Shown here: in pieces, positions 7,524 through 44,733 of the stretch
How positions within the stretch are numbered: position 1 is the stretch's first letter
Layout: each line of letters begins with the position of its first letter
Assembly: GCF_000018425.1 (NCBI RefSeq)
Contig: NC_010424.1
Coordinates: forward strand, 434,001 to 498,000
Reading direction: 5' to 3'
Length of the DNA: 64,000 bases
Source of the DNA: Candidatus Desulforudis audaxviator MP104C
Lineage (GTDB): Bacteria > Bacillota > Desulfotomaculia > Desulfotomaculales > Desulforudaceae
Notes under the pieces: model-generated
Seen by the model: only the letters and a program-made list of their open reading frames with translations
The model's database searches: none
Told to the model about the DNA's origin: nothing
Made by a program: the position numbers and the translations under genes

Positions 7524-9316
7524 AAGCCATTTGCGATGTTCGGGAGAAAAGATAAATAGGCTGTTTTAGAGTTGCGGAAAAAACATTTTACCCCGGTCCA
7601 ATCCGGATTTTATGCGGTTTGCAGGGATGGGTAACGGGCGGATCGGCAAAATTGACCCCAAGGGAGAAAAGCGGAGAAAAAGCGAAGGAGAATGAGAAAT
7701 AAGAAGGGAAAACCCCCTTTTGTGGAGAATCCTTTTTGTAACCACCAAAAAAGAACCACGAAGGAGGTTTCCCTTATGGCCATTATACCACAACAGCGGC
7801 TTTTTGGGTGGCAGGAAATCGACGAACTCGGTGACTTGGAACGTTTTTTGCTTGTAGTGAACCACCTGCCCGATGAGCAGTTGATGCAAAAGCTGGAGAG
7901 AGAGCGTGGTAAGGGACGGGATGATTACCCGGTGCGGGCGGTTTGGAACTCCATCCTGGCCGGGATCGTATTTCAGCACGTGTCTGTGGAGAGCCTGCGG
8001 CGGGAACTCTGCCGGAACGGCCAGTTGCGGGAACTTTGCGGTTTTGATCCGGCCCGGGGCGAGGATGCCGTTCCGCCTTCTTACATATACAGCCGCATCT
8101 TGGTGAAACTGATGCGGCACGCCGACGAAGTGGAAAACATATTTACGCGGCTGGTGGATGAAATAAGAGTGCTGCTACCGGATTTCGGTCGAATTTTGGC
8201 CATAGACAGCAAAGCCGTCAGCAGTCTGGCCCGGGGCAAAAAGCGGGATGAAGAAGAGAAGGTCCAAAAGCCTGACGGGCGCCGGGACACCGATGCGGAC
8301 TGGGGCCGGAAAACATACCGGGGGCGTAAGAAAGGCGGCACCCTATGGGAAAAAGTTGTGTGGTGGTTTGGCTACAAACTCCACCTTGTAGTTGACGCTG
8401 TTTATGAACTGCCGGTGGGATTTGCGGTGACAAAGGCATCGGCCAGCGACGTGAAAGAGGGACATATACTCATTGATCGGGTGGCGAAAGAGCATCCGGA
8501 GATTGTGGCCCGCTGCGAGGCATTGGCGGCGGACAAAGCCTTTGACGACATCAAGCTAAACGTGAAACTCTGGGACGAATACCGGATCAAGCCCGTGATT
8601 GACATCCGCAACACGTGGCGGGACGGCGAGGAGACGTGGCTTGTAACCGGTAAGGAGAACATCGTTTACGATTACCGTGGAACGGTTTATTGTTGCTGCC
8701 CCGAGACAAACAAACATCGCGAGATGGCCTTCGGGGGATTTGAGAAAGACCGGGAAACCTTGAAATACCGCTGTCCGGCCCGGCACTACGGAGTAGAGTG
8801 CCGGGGCATGGAACAATGTGCCGCAACCGGTGGGATACGTATTCCCCTGGTGGAAGACCGGCGGATCTTCACCCCGCTGGCGCGGTCCAGCTACAAGTGG
8901 AAAACACTCTACAAAAAGCGTACGGCGGTAGAAAGGGTAAATGCCCGCCTGGACGAGGCCTACGGATTTGAAAAGCATTTCATTCGGGGCTTGAAGAAGA
9001 TGAAGCTGCGTTGCGGGTTGGCCCTGATGGTGATGCTGGCGATGGCCGTGGGCCGACTGCGACAAAAACAAGGAATAGACTTAAGGAGCCTGGTGAAGGC
9101 GGCCTGACGGGGCTCAACCGGAAAACAGATTACCTGCCAAGAGACGCCCAGAGTGGCGCTGGGGTAAGTTTGCCCTTTGGCAGAGCGGCATAGTCTATAT
9201 ACTCCATTTACCCCAATATTAGGTTGCTAACTGTGTTTTGTGGCTTGGGGAACAGCCGGTGCCGGGTGTGGGCGTTGCCTTGTCGGGACCAAAAATGCTT
9301 ACAACGCAAAACGCTG
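7524..9316 (+). mobile_element. Insertion sequence, copy 1 of 3 (1793 bp)
   Basis: Boundaries come from comparing the three copies in the window (also 32954-34746 and 37745-39537), all exactly 1793 bp. The ends are imperfect inverted repeats: AAGCCATTTGCGATGT at the left and CAGCGTTTTGCGTTGT as the inverted right end, 12 of 16 matching. The element is flanked by the 5-bp direct repeat GAAGT (7519-7523 and 9317-9321), and excising it restores mcrB. It carries one transposase gene. The copies differ at only a few silent positions near 8356-8410, so the burst was recent. Confidence 0.95.
7776..9107 (+). CDS. DDE transposase of the 1793-bp IS (copy 1)
   Basis: A 443-residue transposase that should cut and rejoin the IS ends. 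The ATG at 7776 is preceded by a strong AAGGAGG (7761-7767); an upstream in-frame ATG at 7692 lacks a ribosome site. The N-terminus (LGDLERFLLVVNHLPDEQL) resembles the DUF772-type domain of IS4/IS5/IS1182 transposases. Candidate catalytic residues are LAIDSKAV (first Asp), AADKAFDD (second Asp) and TAVERVNARLDE (Glu). A cysteine-bearing insertion lies between the last two (CCCPETNK, CPARHYGVECRG). The frame is intact and probably functional. Assignment to a precise IS family is uncertain. Confidence 0.9.
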   Translation: MAIIPQQRLFGWQEIDELGDLERFLLVVNHLPDEQLMQKLERERGKGRDDYPVRAVWNSILAGIVFQHVSVESLRRELCRNGQLRELCGFDPARGEDAVPPSYIYSRILVKLMRHADEVENIFTRLVDEIRVLLPDFGRILAIDSKAVSSLARGKKRDEEEKVQKPDGRRDTDADWGRKTYRGRKKGGTLWEKVVWWFGYKLHLVVDAVYELPVGFAVTKASASDVKEGHILIDRVAKEHPEIVARCEALAADKAFDDIKLNVKLWDEYRIKPVIDIRNTWRDGEETWLVTGKENIVYDYRGTVYCCCPETNKHREMAFGGFEKDRETLKYRCPARHYGVECRGMEQCAATGGIRIPLVEDRRIFTPLARSSYKWKTLYKKRTAVERVNARLDEAYGFEKHFIRGLKKMKLRCGLALMVMLAMAVGRLRQKQGIDLRSLVKAA

Positions 9317-31395: not shown

Positions 31396-31503
31396 GGGGT
31401 ATCCGGGGGTACCCGCACTGAAAGGGGACAGTCCCCTTCGGGCCTTAGGGGGACTGTCCCCCCAGGGTACCCGCTTTAGCGGGTCAGCGGGTCGGCCGGC
31501 CCC
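31396..31503 (+). repeat. GC-rich palindromic element, copy A, with nested hairpin
   Basis: Contains the element core GGGTACCCGCTTTAGCGGGT then CAGCGGGTCGG (31465-31495), in which ACCCGC-TTTA-GCGGGT forms a small hairpin. A second hairpin is inserted on its left: GGGGACAGTCCCC and GGGGACTGTCCCC around a short loop (31424-31462). Other copies are at 42503, 42817, 44062 and 44243. This one adjoins a broken GHKL ATPase gene. Confidence 0.75.
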
Positions 31504-32667: not shown

Positions 32668-32953
32668 GGCGGAAAGGTTTTTCGTCAGTGGGATTCCCCG
32701 TCCCAACTTAATCCGTTCAGGTCCAGTTTGCCGTCCTGCAGCAGGCGGGCCTTGAACAGCCTCATCGGTTGGGGCAGGCGGTAGCTTCGTGGGCCAACCT
32801 GCACCACCACGTCCGCGTGTGCTCGGGCGATGCTTATTTTCCGGTTTTCAGGTACCGTGATCCGGGTGGTTACCCCCAAGAGCGACCCGGCTTCTTTGAC
32901 GTAGACGTTTCCCTTCGCGAGAACGAACCCCCCGCGCAGCACTCCATTGATAT

Positions 32954-34746
32954 AAGCCATTTGCGATGTTCGGGAGAAAAGATAAATAGGCTGTTTTAGA
33001 GTTGCGGAAAAAACATTTTACCCCGGTCCAATCCGGATTTTATGCGGTTTGCAGGGATGGGTAACGGGCGGATCGGCAAAATTGACCCCAAGGGAGAAAA
33101 GCGGAGAAAAAGCGAAGGAGAATGAGAAATAAGAAGGGAAAACCCCCTTTTGTGGAGAATCCTTTTTGTAACCACCAAAAAAGAACCACGAAGGAGGTTT
33201 CCCTTATGGCCATTATACCACAACAGCGGCTTTTTGGGTGGCAGGAAATCGACGAACTCGGTGACTTGGAACGTTTTTTGCTTGTAGTGAACCACCTGCC
33301 CGATGAGCAGTTGATGCAAAAGCTGGAGAGAGAGCGTGGTAAGGGACGGGATGATTACCCGGTGCGGGCGGTTTGGAACTCCATCCTGGCCGGGATCGTA
33401 TTTCAGCACGTGTCTGTGGAGAGCCTGCGGCGGGAACTCTGCCGGAACGGCCAGTTGCGGGAACTTTGCGGTTTTGATCCGGCCCGGGGCGAGGATGCCG
33501 TTCCGCCTTCTTACATATACAGCCGCATCTTGGTGAAACTGATGCGGCACGCCGACGAAGTGGAAAACATATTTACGCGGCTGGTGGATGAAATAAGAGT
33601 GCTGCTACCGGATTTCGGTCGAATTTTGGCCATAGACAGCAAAGCCGTCAGCAGTCTGGCCCGGGGCAAAAAGCGGGATGAAGAAGAGAAGGTCCAAAAG
33701 CCTGACGGGCGCCGGGACACCGATGCGGACTGGGGCCGGAAAACATACCGGGGGCGTAAGAAAGGCGGCACCCTATGGGAAAAAGTCGTGTGGTGGTTTG
33801 GCTACAAACTCCACCTCGTAGTTGACGCTGTTTATGAATTGCCGGTGGGATTTGCGGTGACAAAGGCATCGGCCAGCGACGTGAAAGAGGGACATATACT
33901 CATTGATCGGGTGGCGAAAGAGCATCCGGAGATTGTGGCCCGCTGCGAGGCATTGGCGGCGGACAAAGCCTTTGACGACATCAAGCTAAACGTGAAACTC
34001 TGGGACGAATACCGGATCAAGCCCGTGATTGACATCCGCAACACGTGGCGGGACGGCGAGGAGACGTGGCTTGTAACCGGTAAGGAGAACATCGTTTACG
34101 ATTACCGTGGAACGGTTTATTGTTGCTGCCCCGAGACAAACAAACATCGCGAGATGGCCTTCGGGGGATTTGAGAAAGACCGGGAAACCTTGAAATACCG
34201 CTGTCCGGCCCGGCACTACGGAGTAGAGTGCCGGGGCATGGAACAATGTGCCGCAACCGGTGGGATACGTATTCCCCTGGTGGAAGACCGGCGGATCTTC
34301 ACCCCGCTGGCGCGGTCCAGCTACAAGTGGAAAACACTCTACAAAAAGCGTACGGCGGTAGAAAGGGTAAATGCCCGCCTGGACGAGGCCTACGGATTTG
34401 AAAAGCATTTCATTCGGGGCTTGAAGAAGATGAAGCTGCGTTGCGGGTTGGCCCTGATGGTGATGCTGGCGATGGCCGTGGGCCGACTGCGACAAAAACA
34501 AGGAATAGACTTAAGGAGCCTGGTGAAGGCGGCCTGACGGGGCTCAACCGGAAAACAGATTACCTGCCAAGAGACGCCCAGAGTGGCGCTGGGGTAAGTT
34601 TGCCCTTTGGCAGAGCGGCATAGTCTATATACTCCATTTACCCCAATATTAGGTTGCTAACTGTGTTTTGTGGCTTGGGGAACAGCCGGTGCCGGGTGTG
34701 GGCGTTGCCTTGTCGGGACCAAAAATGCTTACAACGCAAAACGCTG
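32954..34746 (+). mobile_element. Insertion sequence, copy 2 of 3 (1793 bp)
   Basis: Same ends as copy 1. It is flanked by an 8-bp direct repeat ATTGATAT (32946-32953 and 34747-34754), not 5 bp as for copies 1 and 3. Merging the flanks restores the FapA-like reading frame VDINGVL. It differs from copy 1 at three silent positions near 33787-33840. Confidence 0.95.
33206..34537 (+). CDS. DDE transposase of the 1793-bp IS (copy 2)
   Basis: Identical in protein sequence to the transposase at 7776-9107, with the same AAGGAGG ribosome site and intact frame. Confidence 0.9.
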   Translation: MAIIPQQRLFGWQEIDELGDLERFLLVVNHLPDEQLMQKLERERGKGRDDYPVRAVWNSILAGIVFQHVSVESLRRELCRNGQLRELCGFDPARGEDAVPPSYIYSRILVKLMRHADEVENIFTRLVDEIRVLLPDFGRILAIDSKAVSSLARGKKRDEEEKVQKPDGRRDTDADWGRKTYRGRKKGGTLWEKVVWWFGYKLHLVVDAVYELPVGFAVTKASASDVKEGHILIDRVAKEHPEIVARCEALAADKAFDDIKLNVKLWDEYRIKPVIDIRNTWRDGEETWLVTGKENIVYDYRGTVYCCCPETNKHREMAFGGFEKDRETLKYRCPARHYGVECRGMEQCAATGGIRIPLVEDRRIFTPLARSSYKWKTLYKKRTAVERVNARLDEAYGFEKHFIRGLKKMKLRCGLALMVMLAMAVGRLRQKQGIDLRSLVKAA

Positions 34747-37744: not shown

Positions 37745-39537
37745 CAGCGTTTTGCGTTGTAAGCATTTTTGGTCCCGACAAGGCAACGCCCACACCCGGC
37801 ACCGGCTGTTCCCCAAGCCACAAAACACAGTTAGCAACCTAATATTGGGGTAAATGGAGTATATAGACTATGCCGCTCTGCCAAAGGGCAAACTTACCCC
37901 AGCGCCACTCTGGGCGTCTCTTGGCAGGTAATCTGTTTTCCGGTTGAGCCCCGTCAGGCCGCCTTCACCAGGCTCCTTAAGTCTATTCCTTGTTTTTGTC
38001 GCAGTCGGCCCACGGCCATCGCCAGCATCACCATCAGGGCCAACCCGCAACGTAGCTTCATCTTCTTCAAGCCCCGAATGAAATGCTTTTCAAATCCGTA
38101 GGCCTCGTCCAGGCGGGCATTTACCCTTTCTACCGCCGTACGCTTTTTGTAGAGTGTTTTCCACTTGTAGCTGGACCGCGCCAGCGGGGTGAAGATCCGC
38201 CGGTCTTCCACCAGGGGAATACGTATCCCACCGGTTGCGGCACATTGTTCCATGCCCCGGCACTCTACTCCGTAGTGCCGGGCCGGACAGCGGTATTTCA
38301 AGGTTTCCCGGTCTTTCTCAAATCCCCCGAAGGCCATCTCGCGATGTTTGTTTGTCTCGGGGCAGCAACAATAAACCGTTCCACGGTAATCGTAAACGAT
38401 GTTCTCCTTACCGGTTACAAGCCACGTCTCCTCGCCGTCCCGCCACGTGTTGCGGATGTCAATCACGGGCTTGATCCGGTATTCGTCCCAGAGTTTCACG
38501 TTTAGCTTGATGTCGTCAAAGGCTTTGTCCGCCGCCAATGCCTCGCAGCGGGCCACAATCTCCGGATGCTCTTTCGCCACCCGATCAATGAGTATATGTC
38601 CCTCTTTCACGTCGCTGGCCGATGCCTTTGTCACCGCAAATCCCACCGGCAGTTCATAAACAGCGTCAACTACAAGGTGGAGTTTGTAGCCAAACCACCA
38701 CACGACTTTTTCCCATAGGGTGCCGCCTTTCTTACGCCCCCGGTATGTTTTCCGGCCCCAGTCCGCATCGGTGTCCCGGCGCCCGTCAGGCTTTTGGACC
38801 TTCTCTTCTTCATCCCGCTTTTTGCCCCGGGCCAGACTGCTGACGGCTTTGCTGTCTATGGCCAAAATTCGACCGAAATCCGGTAGCAGCACTCTTATTT
38901 CATCCACCAGCCGCGTAAATATGTTTTCCACTTCGTCGGCGTGCCGCATCAGTTTCACCAAGATGCGGCTGTATATGTAAGAAGGCGGAACGGCATCCTC
39001 GCCCCGGGCCGGATCAAAACCGCAAAGTTCCCGCAACTGGCCGTTCCGGCAGAGTTCCCGCCGCAGGCTCTCCACAGACACGTGCTGAAATACGATCCCG
39101 GCCAGGATGGAGTTCCAAACCGCCCGCACCGGGTAATCATCCCGTCCCTTACCACGCTCTCTCTCCAGCTTTTGCATCAACTGCTCATCGGGCAGGTGGT
39201 TCACTACAAGCAAAAAACGTTCCAAGTCACCGAGTTCGTCGATTTCCTGCCACCCAAAAAGCCGCTGTTGTGGTATAATGGCCATAAGGGAAACCTCCTT
39301 CGTGGTTCTTTTTTGGTGGTTACAAAAAGGATTCTCCACAAAAGGGGGTTTTCCCTTCTTATTTCTCATTCTCCTTCGCTTTTTCTCCGCTTTTCTCCCT
39401 TGGGGTCAATTTTGCCGATCCGCCCGTTACCCATCCCTGCAAACCGCATAAAATCCGGATTGGACCGGGGTAAAATGTTTTTTCCGCAACTCTAAAACAG
39501 CCTATTTATCTTTTCTCCCGAACATCGCAAATGGCTT
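37745..39537 (-). mobile_element. Insertion sequence, copy 3 of 3 (1793 bp)
   Basis: Same ends as copies 1 and 2, inverted in orientation, and flanked by the 5-bp direct repeat GTGTC (37740-37744 and 39538-39542). It lies between the RDD and NADAR genes and breaks no recognisable gene. Confidence 0.95.
37954..39285 (-). CDS. DDE transposase of the 1793-bp IS (copy 3)
   Basis: Same 443-residue protein as the other two copies, intact. Confidence 0.9.
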   Translation of the reverse strand: MAIIPQQRLFGWQEIDELGDLERFLLVVNHLPDEQLMQKLERERGKGRDDYPVRAVWNSILAGIVFQHVSVESLRRELCRNGQLRELCGFDPARGEDAVPPSYIYSRILVKLMRHADEVENIFTRLVDEIRVLLPDFGRILAIDSKAVSSLARGKKRDEEEKVQKPDGRRDTDADWGRKTYRGRKKGGTLWEKVVWWFGYKLHLVVDAVYELPVGFAVTKASASDVKEGHILIDRVAKEHPEIVARCEALAADKAFDDIKLNVKLWDEYRIKPVIDIRNTWRDGEETWLVTGKENIVYDYRGTVYCCCPETNKHREMAFGGFEKDRETLKYRCPARHYGVECRGMEQCAATGGIRIPLVEDRRIFTPLARSSYKWKTLYKKRTAVERVNARLDEAYGFEKHFIRGLKKMKLRCGLALMVMLAMAVGRLRQKQGIDLRSLVKAA

Positions 39538-39551
39538 GTGTCATTCCGGTT

Positions 39552-42241: not shown

Positions 42242-43657
42242 TTGTCCGCCGCCACACTCCTGCTTCCGGTTCTTGTGTGCCTGATGCTTTTTCTGGCGCC
42301 GGCCGGGCCGGCCGGCGCCACAGCCTTGAGCTATGATGTCGGCGTGGTCATCAACGCCAGTCTCCTGAGCATCCCGGCCCATGATCAGCAGGCCTTCATC
42401 AAGGACGGGCGGGTGTACGTACCGCTGCGCGCGGTCGGTAAAAACCTGGGCTGTGAGGTGGAGTGGATCAGGGAAACCAGGCAGGTGGTCATCACCTCCC
42501 GGGGCCGACCCGCTGACCCGCTAAAGCGGGTGCCCCCGGGTACCCCGGCGGCGGCGCTTCCCGGCCGGACGGGTGACCGACAGCGGGTGCAGATCGTGGT
42601 GGACGGGCAGATCAAGGAGTTTTCCGCCGACTACGGCGAGCCCTTCATCACCGCTGCGGGGCGGACGGTGGTCCCCTTACGGGCGGTGGGCGAGGCGCTG
42701 GGCTGTGAGGTGGACTGGAACAGTGCCACGCGCTTGGTGACCATCCGGTCCAAACCCCAAGCCCCGCCGCCCAGCCGCGGTCCGGAGGAGTACGGGGAAA
42801 CCAGGCCTTCGCCGTCGGGGTACCCGGGGGCACCCGGGGGTACCCGCTTTGGCGGGTCAGCGGGTCGGCGGGTCGGCCTGCTGCAGGAACTGGCCGAGTA
42901 CCGGACCAACCTGCGCCTGCTGGATGGCACCTTCATCAACTCGGCAGAACTCGTGGACAAGGACGAAGAGAACTTCAGCCAAGCCCAACTGGACCGCTTC
43001 CGGAGCGACTTGGATGATCTCAGAAAGTACGATGCGCGGGTCAGGCTCCCGGACGGCCGCGAATGGGCCACCGCCGAACTCACGATACTTGGGCCGGCGA
43101 TCGCGACCGCCGACCAGCTGCGCGCCTGGCTCGAGGCTGAAGCCCGGAAGCGCGTGAGGACTGAGCAGTGGGGGCGGGAGTTCGTCCCCTTCCCGGACCT
43201 GGTGGACCTCTACCTGCGGATCGGCGCCGAGTACGGCGTCCGCGGCGACCTGGCCCTGGCCCAGGCGGCCAAGGAAACCGGCTACTGGCAATTCGGCGGT
43301 GACGTGCAACCGGACCAGAACAACTTCTGCGGGCTCTGGGCGACGGGCACCGCCTTGACCGGCGGGGAATCCCTGAACGGGGCCGATCCGGCCCTGGTTC
43401 GCCTCGAGGCGGGCCGCCACGGGGCGACATTTGCTACCCCGCAAGCCGGGGTCGAAGCGCACATCCAGCACCTGTACGCCTACGCGACCACGGACCCCCT
43501 GCCGCCTGGCAAGGTCCTCCTGAGCCCCCGGTTTGTCTATGTGCAGCGCGGGAGCGCTCCGACCTGGCAGGGGCTGAACGCCAGGTGGGCGGTTCCCGGG
43601 ACGACTTACGGCCAGAGCATCATCCACGACTTCTGGCTGAAAGCCCTCTACTACTGA
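42242..43657 (+). CDS. Exported stalk-domain protein with glucosaminidase-like C-terminus, carrying two palindromic-element insertions
   Basis: A 471-residue protein from a TTG start. Signal peptide at 1-30, then two copper-amine-oxidase N-terminal (stalk) domains, each ending in PLRAVG..LGCEV-W. The C-terminal 150 residues match a glucosaminidase fold (GDLALAQAAKETGYWQFGG, candidate catalytic Glu). Two GC-rich palindromic elements are translated in frame, at 42503-42550 in the linker between the stalk domains and at 42817-42876 in the linker before the C-terminal part. It probably binds and trims cell wall. Confidence 0.8.
   Translation: MSAATLLLPVLVCLMLFLAPAGPAGATALSYDVGVVINASLLSIPAHDQQAFIKDGRVYVPLRAVGKNLGCEVEWIRETRQVVITSRGRPADPLKRVPPGTPAAALPGRTGDRQRVQIVVDGQIKEFSADYGEPFITAAGRTVVPLRAVGEALGCEVDWNSATRLVTIRSKPQAPPPSRGPEEYGETRPSPSGYPGAPGGTRFGGSAGRRVGLLQELAEYRTNLRLLDGTFINSAELVDKDEENFSQAQLDRFRSDLDDLRKYDARVRLPDGREWATAELTILGPAIATADQLRAWLEAEARKRVRTEQWGREFVPFPDLVDLYLRIGAEYGVRGDLALAQAAKETGYWQFGGDVQPDQNNFCGLWATGTALTGGESLNGADPALVRLEAGRHGATFATPQAGVEAHIQHLYAYATTDPLPPGKVLLSPRFVYVQRGSAPTWQGLNARWAVPGTTYGQSIIHDFWLKALYY
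42503..42550 (-). repeat. GC-rich palindromic element, copy B (in frame)
   Basis: CCGACCCGCTGACCCGC-TAAA-GCGGGT followed by GCCCCCGGGTACCCCGG. Translated as RPADPLKRVPPGTP in the host protein, the same peptide as in copy E in another gene. Confidence 0.85.
42817..42876 (+). repeat. GC-rich palindromic element, copy C (in frame)
   Basis: GGGGTACCCGGGGGCACCCG, then GGGGGTACCCGCTTTGGCGG and GTCAGCGGGTCGGCGGGTCG. Opposite orientation to copy B. Translated as GYPGAPGGTRFGGSAGRRVG. Confidence 0.85.
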
Positions 43658-43980
43658 TCGGGGCCTTTTCCCTCAGCGCGGCTCGGCAACGGTCCGCTCC
43701 GGTGCCTGCGAGCACGGCGCCCAATGTCCATCCCCCGGGTCTTGGGCTTTAAGGTTCCGAAGTATGTGCGGCTTTCCGGGTCCGCCCGGATGGCGGAGGT
43801 ATTAAACTTGGCCTGGTGTAAAAGGCCGACCGGAAGCTCCCGGGCCTGATAACCATCGTCAGCCGGTCCTATGCCGGTTTTTTCCTGTTTCCGGGCGAGT
43901 GCCAAGCCAACCCCACTTAGTTACAATAAATGGGTGTAATGTAAAACATTGCATTCAGAGGAACTTTTATTGACGGGTGG
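43658..43980. other. Noncoding gap between two wall-protein genes
   Basis: A 41-codon frame at 43724-43849 (MSIPRVLGFKVPKYVRLSGS) has no ribosome site and I do not support it. A weak hairpin with T run, CCGGTCCTATGCCGG-TTTTTT (43865-43885), could end transcription. The c-di-AMP riboswitch often found before such genes is not visible. Confidence 0.45.
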
Positions 43981-44733
43981 GTGTTGGTTCTGAGTTCCAC
44001 GGGATGGCACACGCTGACCCCCCGGAACAGGAACACCTGTGCCAGGGTATCGCTGACCGACGGGGTACCCGCGTCAGCGGGTCGGCCGGCGCAAGATGTG
44101 AAAACAAGCCGGGGTGCCCGTGGCCTGTTATTGATCTCGGGTCTGGCGGTGGTGTTCCTGCTTGTGTGCGGCACGGCCTTTTTCGGGTTCGGGGGTACCG
44201 CCGGGCAGCCGGAACCCATGGTGATGGCGGTGGCCGAAGCGCCCGCCGACCCGCTGACCCGACCCGCTGACCCGCTAAAGCGGGTACCCCCGGGTACCCC
44301 GGGCGGGTACCCCCGGGTACCCCGGATGCCCGACCGGGTGGACCGTTCCAAGGAAGTCGACCCGGGCCCGCTCCTGGAAACCACCACCCAACAGTCAGCC
44401 CGGGCCGAGCGGTTGGAGACGGAACCGGCCGCCCGGGGCGGGGGGCGGTGGCTGGCGATGCTCGCCACGGCCTACACCCCGGATTGCGGCAACGGCGACG
44501 GCTACACCGCGACGATGACCAGGCCGCGGATCGGGGTCATCGCGGTCGATCCCCTGGTTATTCCCTACAAAACGTTGGTCTACATCGAAAAGTATGGATA
44601 CTTCCGGGCCGAGGACACCGGCGCGGACATCAAGGGCAACCGGATCGACATCTACATGGAAACCAGGGCGGAAGCCCTGGAGTTCGGCCGGCGCTGGGTG
44701 GACGTCAAGGTCATCGGGAAAATAGAGGAATGA
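43981..44733 (+). CDS. 3D-domain (Sps/YabE-like) membrane protein carrying two palindromic-element insertions
   Basis: A 250-residue protein from GTG 43981. A short cytoplasmic N-terminus, one membrane helix (LLLISGLAVVFLLVCGTAFF), a linker, then a C-terminal 3D domain: MLATAYTPDCGNGDGYTATM, IAVDPLVIPYKTLVYIEKYG, FRAEDTGADIKGNRIDIYME, with the three Asp for which the fold is named. Such domains act as lytic transglycosylases on peptidoglycan. Elements at 44062-44090 and 44243-44326 lie in the cytoplasmic tail and the linker. The true start is unsure because copy D lies near it. Confidence 0.8.
   Translation: MLVLSSTGWHTLTPRNRNTCARVSLTDGVPASAGRPAQDVKTSRGARGLLLISGLAVVFLLVCGTAFFGFGGTAGQPEPMVMAVAEAPADPLTRPADPLKRVPPGTPGGYPRVPRMPDRVDRSKEVDPGPLLETTTQQSARAERLETEPAARGGGRWLAMLATAYTPDCGNGDGYTATMTRPRIGVIAVDPLVIPYKTLVYIEKYGYFRAEDTGADIKGNRIDIYMETRAEALEFGRRWVDVKVIGKIEE
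44062..44090 (+). repeat. GC-rich palindromic element, copy D (short, in frame)
   Basis: GGGGTACCCGC-GTCAGCGGGT-CGGCCGGC, a short version lacking the TTTA hairpin. Translated as GVPASAGRP ahead of the membrane helix. Confidence 0.7.
44243..44326 (-). repeat. GC-rich palindromic element, copy E (extended, in frame)
   Basis: The core is partly duplicated: CCGACCCGCTGACCCGACCC, then GCTGACCCGC-TAAA-GCGGGT, then two repeats of ACCCCCGGGTACCCCGG. Translated as ADPLTRPADPLKRVPPGTPG in the linker after the membrane helix. Confidence 0.85.

Follow-up and report, generated by a model that had tools for sequence, protein, structure and literature searches.

Palindromic repeats within genes are best known from the intracellular Rickettsia, and relaxed selection is the usual reason given for their presence. 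The palindromic elements of Rickettsia (RPEs) are 105-150 bp long and lie in frame within conserved genes (PMC2229807, PMC10969869). In several free-living species, intragenic GTAG and CGTC REPs with stems of 5-13 bp (GTAG) or 8-9 bp (CGTC) encode 20-30 amino acids in genes, many of them DNA repair genes, and Bacillota is missing from the phyla listed for them (PMC3733652).

The element described here, from Candidatus Desulforudis audaxviator MP104C, resembles the RPEs and the Wolbachia WPE in being a palindrome found both between genes and in frame in conserved, unrelated genes, in being tolerated by the host protein and in having no known transposase (PMC2229807, PMC10969869). Unlike the RPEs of intracellular Alphaproteobacteria, it inhabits free-living Bacillota, its core measures 18-22 nt and its copies 28-108 bp (RPEs are about 105-150 bp with terminal inverted repeats), and it is GC-rich and modular, as judged against the published descriptions of RPEs. 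Of the features that mark an RPE, a dispersed stem-loop and an in-frame insertion absent from orthologues are both found, and the length is not. Like the GTAG/CGTC REPs (PMC3733652), it forms short stem-loops, single or grouped, within genes, and its 6-bp stem falls inside the GTAG range and outside the CGTC range. It differs from them in carrying no unpaired tag at the stem end, in having no RAYT link, and in the large share of its copies that are intragenic, whereas REPs are mostly extragenic. Bacterial MITEs (RUP, ERIC, NEMIS) are likewise small, non-autonomous dispersed repeats; unlike them, the element does not end in the long inverted repeats of any known IS, and no target-site duplication is visible at XerC, the cleanest empty site. 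By sequence, tag and host it is a new family of the RPE/intragenic-REP kind, set apart from RPEs by their descriptions. The first-pass annotation knew of no such element in this lineage, and a non-exhaustive literature search found no description of it in Desulforudis; the broader novelty is reduced by the intragenic REPs already published from free-living bacteria (PMC3733652).

Copies in the window and anatomy of the element

The window, a 64-kb stretch of the D. audaxviator genome (henceforth G000), holds five copies (A to E), each at the position first reported, together with the following features.

31396-31503, minus strand: copy A, 108 bp, noncoding, interrupted by a second palindrome
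31417-31463, no strand assigned: second palindromic repeat GGGGACAGTCCCC...GGGGGACTGTCCCC, nested in copy A
42242-43657, plus strand: host gene 1, exported protein of 471 aa with Cu_amine_oxidN1 repeats and a C-terminal glucosaminidase domain (Pfam PF07833, PF01832)
42503-42548, plus strand: copy B, 46 bp, sense frame 0, GRPADPLKRVPPGTP
42816-42878, minus strand: copy C, 63 bp, opposite orientation, antisense frame 1, GYPGAPGGTRFGGSAGRRVG
43981-44733, plus strand: host gene 2, membrane-anchored 3D-domain protein of 250 aa (Pfam PF06725 at aa 186-245)
44062-44089, minus strand: copy D, a single 28-bp unit, GVPASAGRP
44241-44325, plus strand: copy E, 85 bp, composite with 8-nt and 10-nt modules repeated, sense frame 0, PADPLTRPADPLKRVPPGTPGGYPRVP

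A scan of the whole 64 kb with a 22-nt core (up to 4 substitutions) returned exactly five cores, and the same scan with reversed and complemented control cores returned none. Host gene 1, which has orthologues in both congeners (G001 and G002), harbours copies B and C, and host gene 2 harbours D and E. As the first-pass annotation had stated, the frame stays open in all coding copies of the window in both orientations, and copies B and E yield one and the same peptide, RPADPLKRVPPGTP. C and D lie opposite to B and E, and the latter two are identical at 43 of 44 nt. Copy D is where it was placed, with its frame open, but it is only a single short unit of 28 bp, close to the start of the 3D-domain gene, which is itself uncertain. 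At the site of copy B the congeners are shorter by 27 and 36 bp; copy C is found in G001 and missing in G002; and at the site of copy D the congeners have a decayed version of equal length. The GGGGACAGTCCCC...GGGGGACTGTCCCC palindrome also occurs within two further noncoding copies (genome positions 1757012-1757115 and 1758204). In an Elusimicrobia MAG (L077), GGGGACAGTCCCC adjoins the same hairpin core. A DDE transposase IS is also present in the window: two identical copies of 1799 bp (32948-34746 and 37745-39543) enclose a FapA-like gene in opposite orientation to each other, and a third copy at 7692-9107 shows 99.8% identity over the transposase ORF.

The conserved core reads G-ACCCGC-TNAN-GCGGGT-RCCCC and forms a hairpin of 18-22 nt with a 6-bp stem and a 4-nt loop, the consensus flanks being CCG/TG before the stem and RCCCC after it. 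Longer copies are extended by tandem 8-nt GACCCGCT on one side and 10-nt CGGGTACCCC on the other. In a covariance model built from 37 cores (30 nt, 6 pairs; core GACCCGCTNANGCGGGTRCCCC), 96% of cells hold an intact stem pair. In 5 of the 37 copies both partners of one pair have changed, which argues that the hairpin is kept, some of this paired change being explained by inheritance. G001 and G002 also have an ACCCAC/GTGGGT subfamily. Copies in the window span 28-108 bp and clean insertions 18-36 bp; the smallest, 18 nt or six codons, have most frames open. The loops added to proteins range from 6 to about 50 aa and are rich in Gly, Pro and Arg.

Copy number and range

At E 0.1 the model matched 37 places in G000, 30 in G001 and 61 in G002, the latter two being draft genomes and G001 73% complete. 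The absence of further copies elsewhere in the genome, which the first-pass annotation had named as evidence against its proposal, is contradicted by the 37 copies of G000. A similarity search found about 30 places there, and a 17-nt core with up to 2 mismatches gave 25 matches against one for the reversed pattern; reversed-pattern controls generally gave about 0-1. The copies of G000 are clustered: 11 neighbouring pairs lie less than 5 kb apart where 2.2 would be expected, a number that not one of 5000 simulations reached. This suggests local copying besides long-range spread. The CRISPR repeat published for strain MP104C (PMC5217627) occurs 155 times in the same genome.

Outside the genus, no model match was found at E 0.1 in four of five genomes of the same family and in both genomes of the same order; the fifth family genome had one at 0.088, and at E 0.001 none of the five had any. 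In the class as a whole (113 genomes), matches at E 0.001 were confined to the three Desulforudis species and to G015, which had two. A match in G014 (L059) looks like tmk coding sequence and was rejected as chance, and one in a fumarase gene (L052, VVADPLNRVNTGDNSPP) was judged to be native sequence.

Over 85,000 genomes the exact 22-nt pattern retrieved 22 stretches, and viral contigs gave no exact match to it. Two Peptococcaceae MAGs stand out, G066 with 13 model matches and G062 with 14; they probably belong to Bacillota of another class, since they were not among the matches of the class search. In-frame core insertions were found in MurA, RlmH, a Mur ligase and an AsrB-like reductase of G066 and in MnmA of G062 (sites at L224 ~1163 and ~3976, L228 ~1288, L229 ~1393 and L231 ~1391). 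That the hairpin family spreads between bacterial lineages and is specialised for life inside coding sequence is a doubtful proposition at present. GC-rich matches in Planctomycetota, Myxococcales, Eisenbacteria and Nitrospirae may be convergent, because a single pattern was run against 85,000 genomes. A groundwater MAG of the Planctomycetota (G060) has 165 near-identical core matches against 3 for the control, with GACCCGCTGGCGCGGGTGCC common and at least one match in an open ORF (e.g. L094 4610); these cores are possibly convergent as well.

Host genes, empty sites and reading frame

In-frame copies in G000 lie in DnaN, FolD (tail), a molybdopterin oxidoreductase (tail), the two window genes, TopA, XerC, an SbcC-like ATPase, PyrF (start), PyrK, CarB, RuvA, LonB, FlhF, FliF, an MptE-like protein, PabB/TrpE and a zf-HC2 antisigma protein. 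The CarB, RuvA and PyrF assignments are putative, being our reading of the sequence rather than domain-library matches, and for the SbcC-like protein the libraries match RecF/RecN/Rad50-type ATPases only. Exported wall proteins, seen at first as the typical hosts, turn out to be a local coincidence, most hosts genome-wide being cytosolic housekeeping proteins. The placement in tails and linkers holds in part: many sites do fall between Pfam domains (DnaN, FlhF, TrpE/PabB), but several are inside conserved ones, such as the catalytic domain of XerC, the NAD domain of PyrK and TopA in G001. The insert in DnaN, the only beta clamp gene of G000, separates the N-terminal (aa 4-126) and central (152-267) Pfam domains. 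The DnaN of G001 (L193/L196) has an additional, unrelated insertion, ANASPLPVPFPLTSHHPLPTS, perhaps from a second intragenic repeat family.

Orthologues in distant species with the same peptide at the same place would have spoken against a mobile element, and alignments showed instead that XerC, DnaN and PyrK outside the genus have no insert. The 12-aa insert of XerC, GVPGGTRFSGSA, directly before the HxxR motif, is present in G000 alone among 10 genomes; it is missing in G001, G002, five family and two order genomes, and at the DNA level it is a clean 36-bp insertion. No target-site duplication is visible at this clean filled/empty pair, and few other sites are clean enough. The DnaN insert is absent from 7 outgroup genomes and the PyrK inserts from 6. 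Within the genus, PyrK site 1 is occupied in all three species at differing lengths and site 2 in G001 and G002 only, and further species-specific insertions were seen in a subtilase, an AddA-like helicase, TopA and other genes. The case for recent activity rests on these species-specific sites, because several sites are common to all three species.

At 22 orthologous coding sites, counted by eye from congener and outgroup alignments, the presence or length of the element varies between species without putting the two flanks out of frame with each other; with indels of random phase, the odds of this would be about (1/3)^22. Exceptions in raw distance are copies C and D (one congener each) and pyrF, and are due to flank mapping, a single-base difference outside the element, or an element at the start codon. 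Frame preservation is partly by construction where an ORF defines the gene; the flanks were nonetheless scored independently by a hexamer coding model applied to 104 model matches with the element itself left out. Of 64 places with same-strand coding flanks, 51 continue in frame, a lower bound as the model misses real cases (XerC, LonB, RuvA), and 10 of the other 13 have a stop between the flanks, as would be the case where one gene ends and another begins. The copies are read in every one of the six frames (antisense 9/14/6, sense 11/9/2), the rarest sense frame (2) being the one closed by the consensus. With TAAAG or TAACG in the loop, the consensus leaves three of the six frames open, and with TGACG four. 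Three G000 copies are read in consensus-closed frames, and in each exactly that stop is altered (TAA to CAA in the antisigma protein, TAG to CAG in TopA, TGT in the SbcC-like protein). Open frames were not significantly enriched in in-frame copies compared with other copies (P 0.08).

Origin of the copies

We favour, with a probability of about 0.83, a family of short non-autonomous palindromic elements that is copied into coding and noncoding DNA, with tolerated in-frame copies persisting. New copies would derive from other copies, over long range and preferentially nearby, and would enter DNA of both kinds, coding and noncoding, whichever way round they lie. Coding insertions that bring a frameshift or stop would mostly be lost, while those with an open frame in a tolerated loop would persist as Gly/Pro/Arg-rich inserts of 6 to about 50 residues, which may later expand, shrink or decay by whole codons. 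The RPE-like behaviour proposed at the outset is borne out by insertion in frame, in both orientations and six frames, in unrelated hosts, with presence and absence differing between congeners. Changes in length by multiples of a codon were observed directly, as were the copies, their two orientations and six frames, the empty sites, the species differences and the clustering. We infer that movement is transposition-like, that the host proteins work, and that the host itself is harmed or unaffected. The analysis turned up neither a transposase for the element nor a target-site duplication or donor molecule, and its clustering and modular growth could reflect repair or template switching instead of transposition.

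A conventional REP family that the RAYT or an IS200-type HUH transposase of the genome mobilises, with the coding copies as its tolerated fraction, would fit both the one RAYT and three IS200-like TnpA genes encoded by G000 and the hairpin of 6-bp stem and 4-nt loop, which matches REP anatomy (PMC3733652). It seems unlikely, given that another palindrome, AAAAAGGGGCCTGGCCCCTTTTT, flanks the RAYT gene (genome position 2268649), the hairpins at the IS200 ends are different too, the element has no GTAG or CGTC tag, and RAYT is found in 8 of 8 family genomes, 5 of which lack the element. RAYT and IS200 were rejected as mobilisers, their flanking palindromes being unlike the element. The RAYT flank (L163 1150-1488) has its own AT-ended palindrome, AAAAAGGGGCCTGGCCCCTTTTT, twice. 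Growth in place is suggested by the 8-nt and 10-nt modules, which grow and contract at shared sites, by the clustering of copies and by one insertion at subtilase site 3 that abuts native GCCCGACCC. That slippage or template switching in GC-rich inverted repeats made the copies without any movement between genes is nevertheless quite improbable: stretches of at least 44 nt are near-identical in unrelated genes and new copies occupy sites empty in congeners and outgroups, so copying from elsewhere is needed.

The Gly/Pro-rich sequence suits loops and many sites are the interdomain linkers mentioned above, as would be expected if selection favoured the peptide as a linker or functional module and recombination spread it for its effect on the protein. 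Yet six frames in both orientations give unrelated peptides, the hosts have unrelated functions, many of the copies lie in noncoding DNA and congeners differ in which sites are occupied; the empty orthologues already suggest that host function is unchanged without the insert, and selection of this kind is very hard to reconcile with these observations. Chance palindromes or an assembly artefact might be invoked for a GC-rich genome with similar cores in unrelated phyla, but control searches with the reversed pattern give almost no matches, and the three species, each assembled separately, have some element sites in common and others not, so this reading, refuted by controls and congeners, can scarcely be entertained.

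The element, then, is abundant in a free-living lineage of the deep subsurface, including in the sliding clamp, a Xer recombinase and topoisomerase I, and three related genomes display its gains, losses and growth at the same sites. Such a system allows direct study of noncoding mobile DNA as a source of protein segments, of how often these are tolerated and of the agent that copies them. Proteins of sister species differ in extra loops, those of essential genes included.
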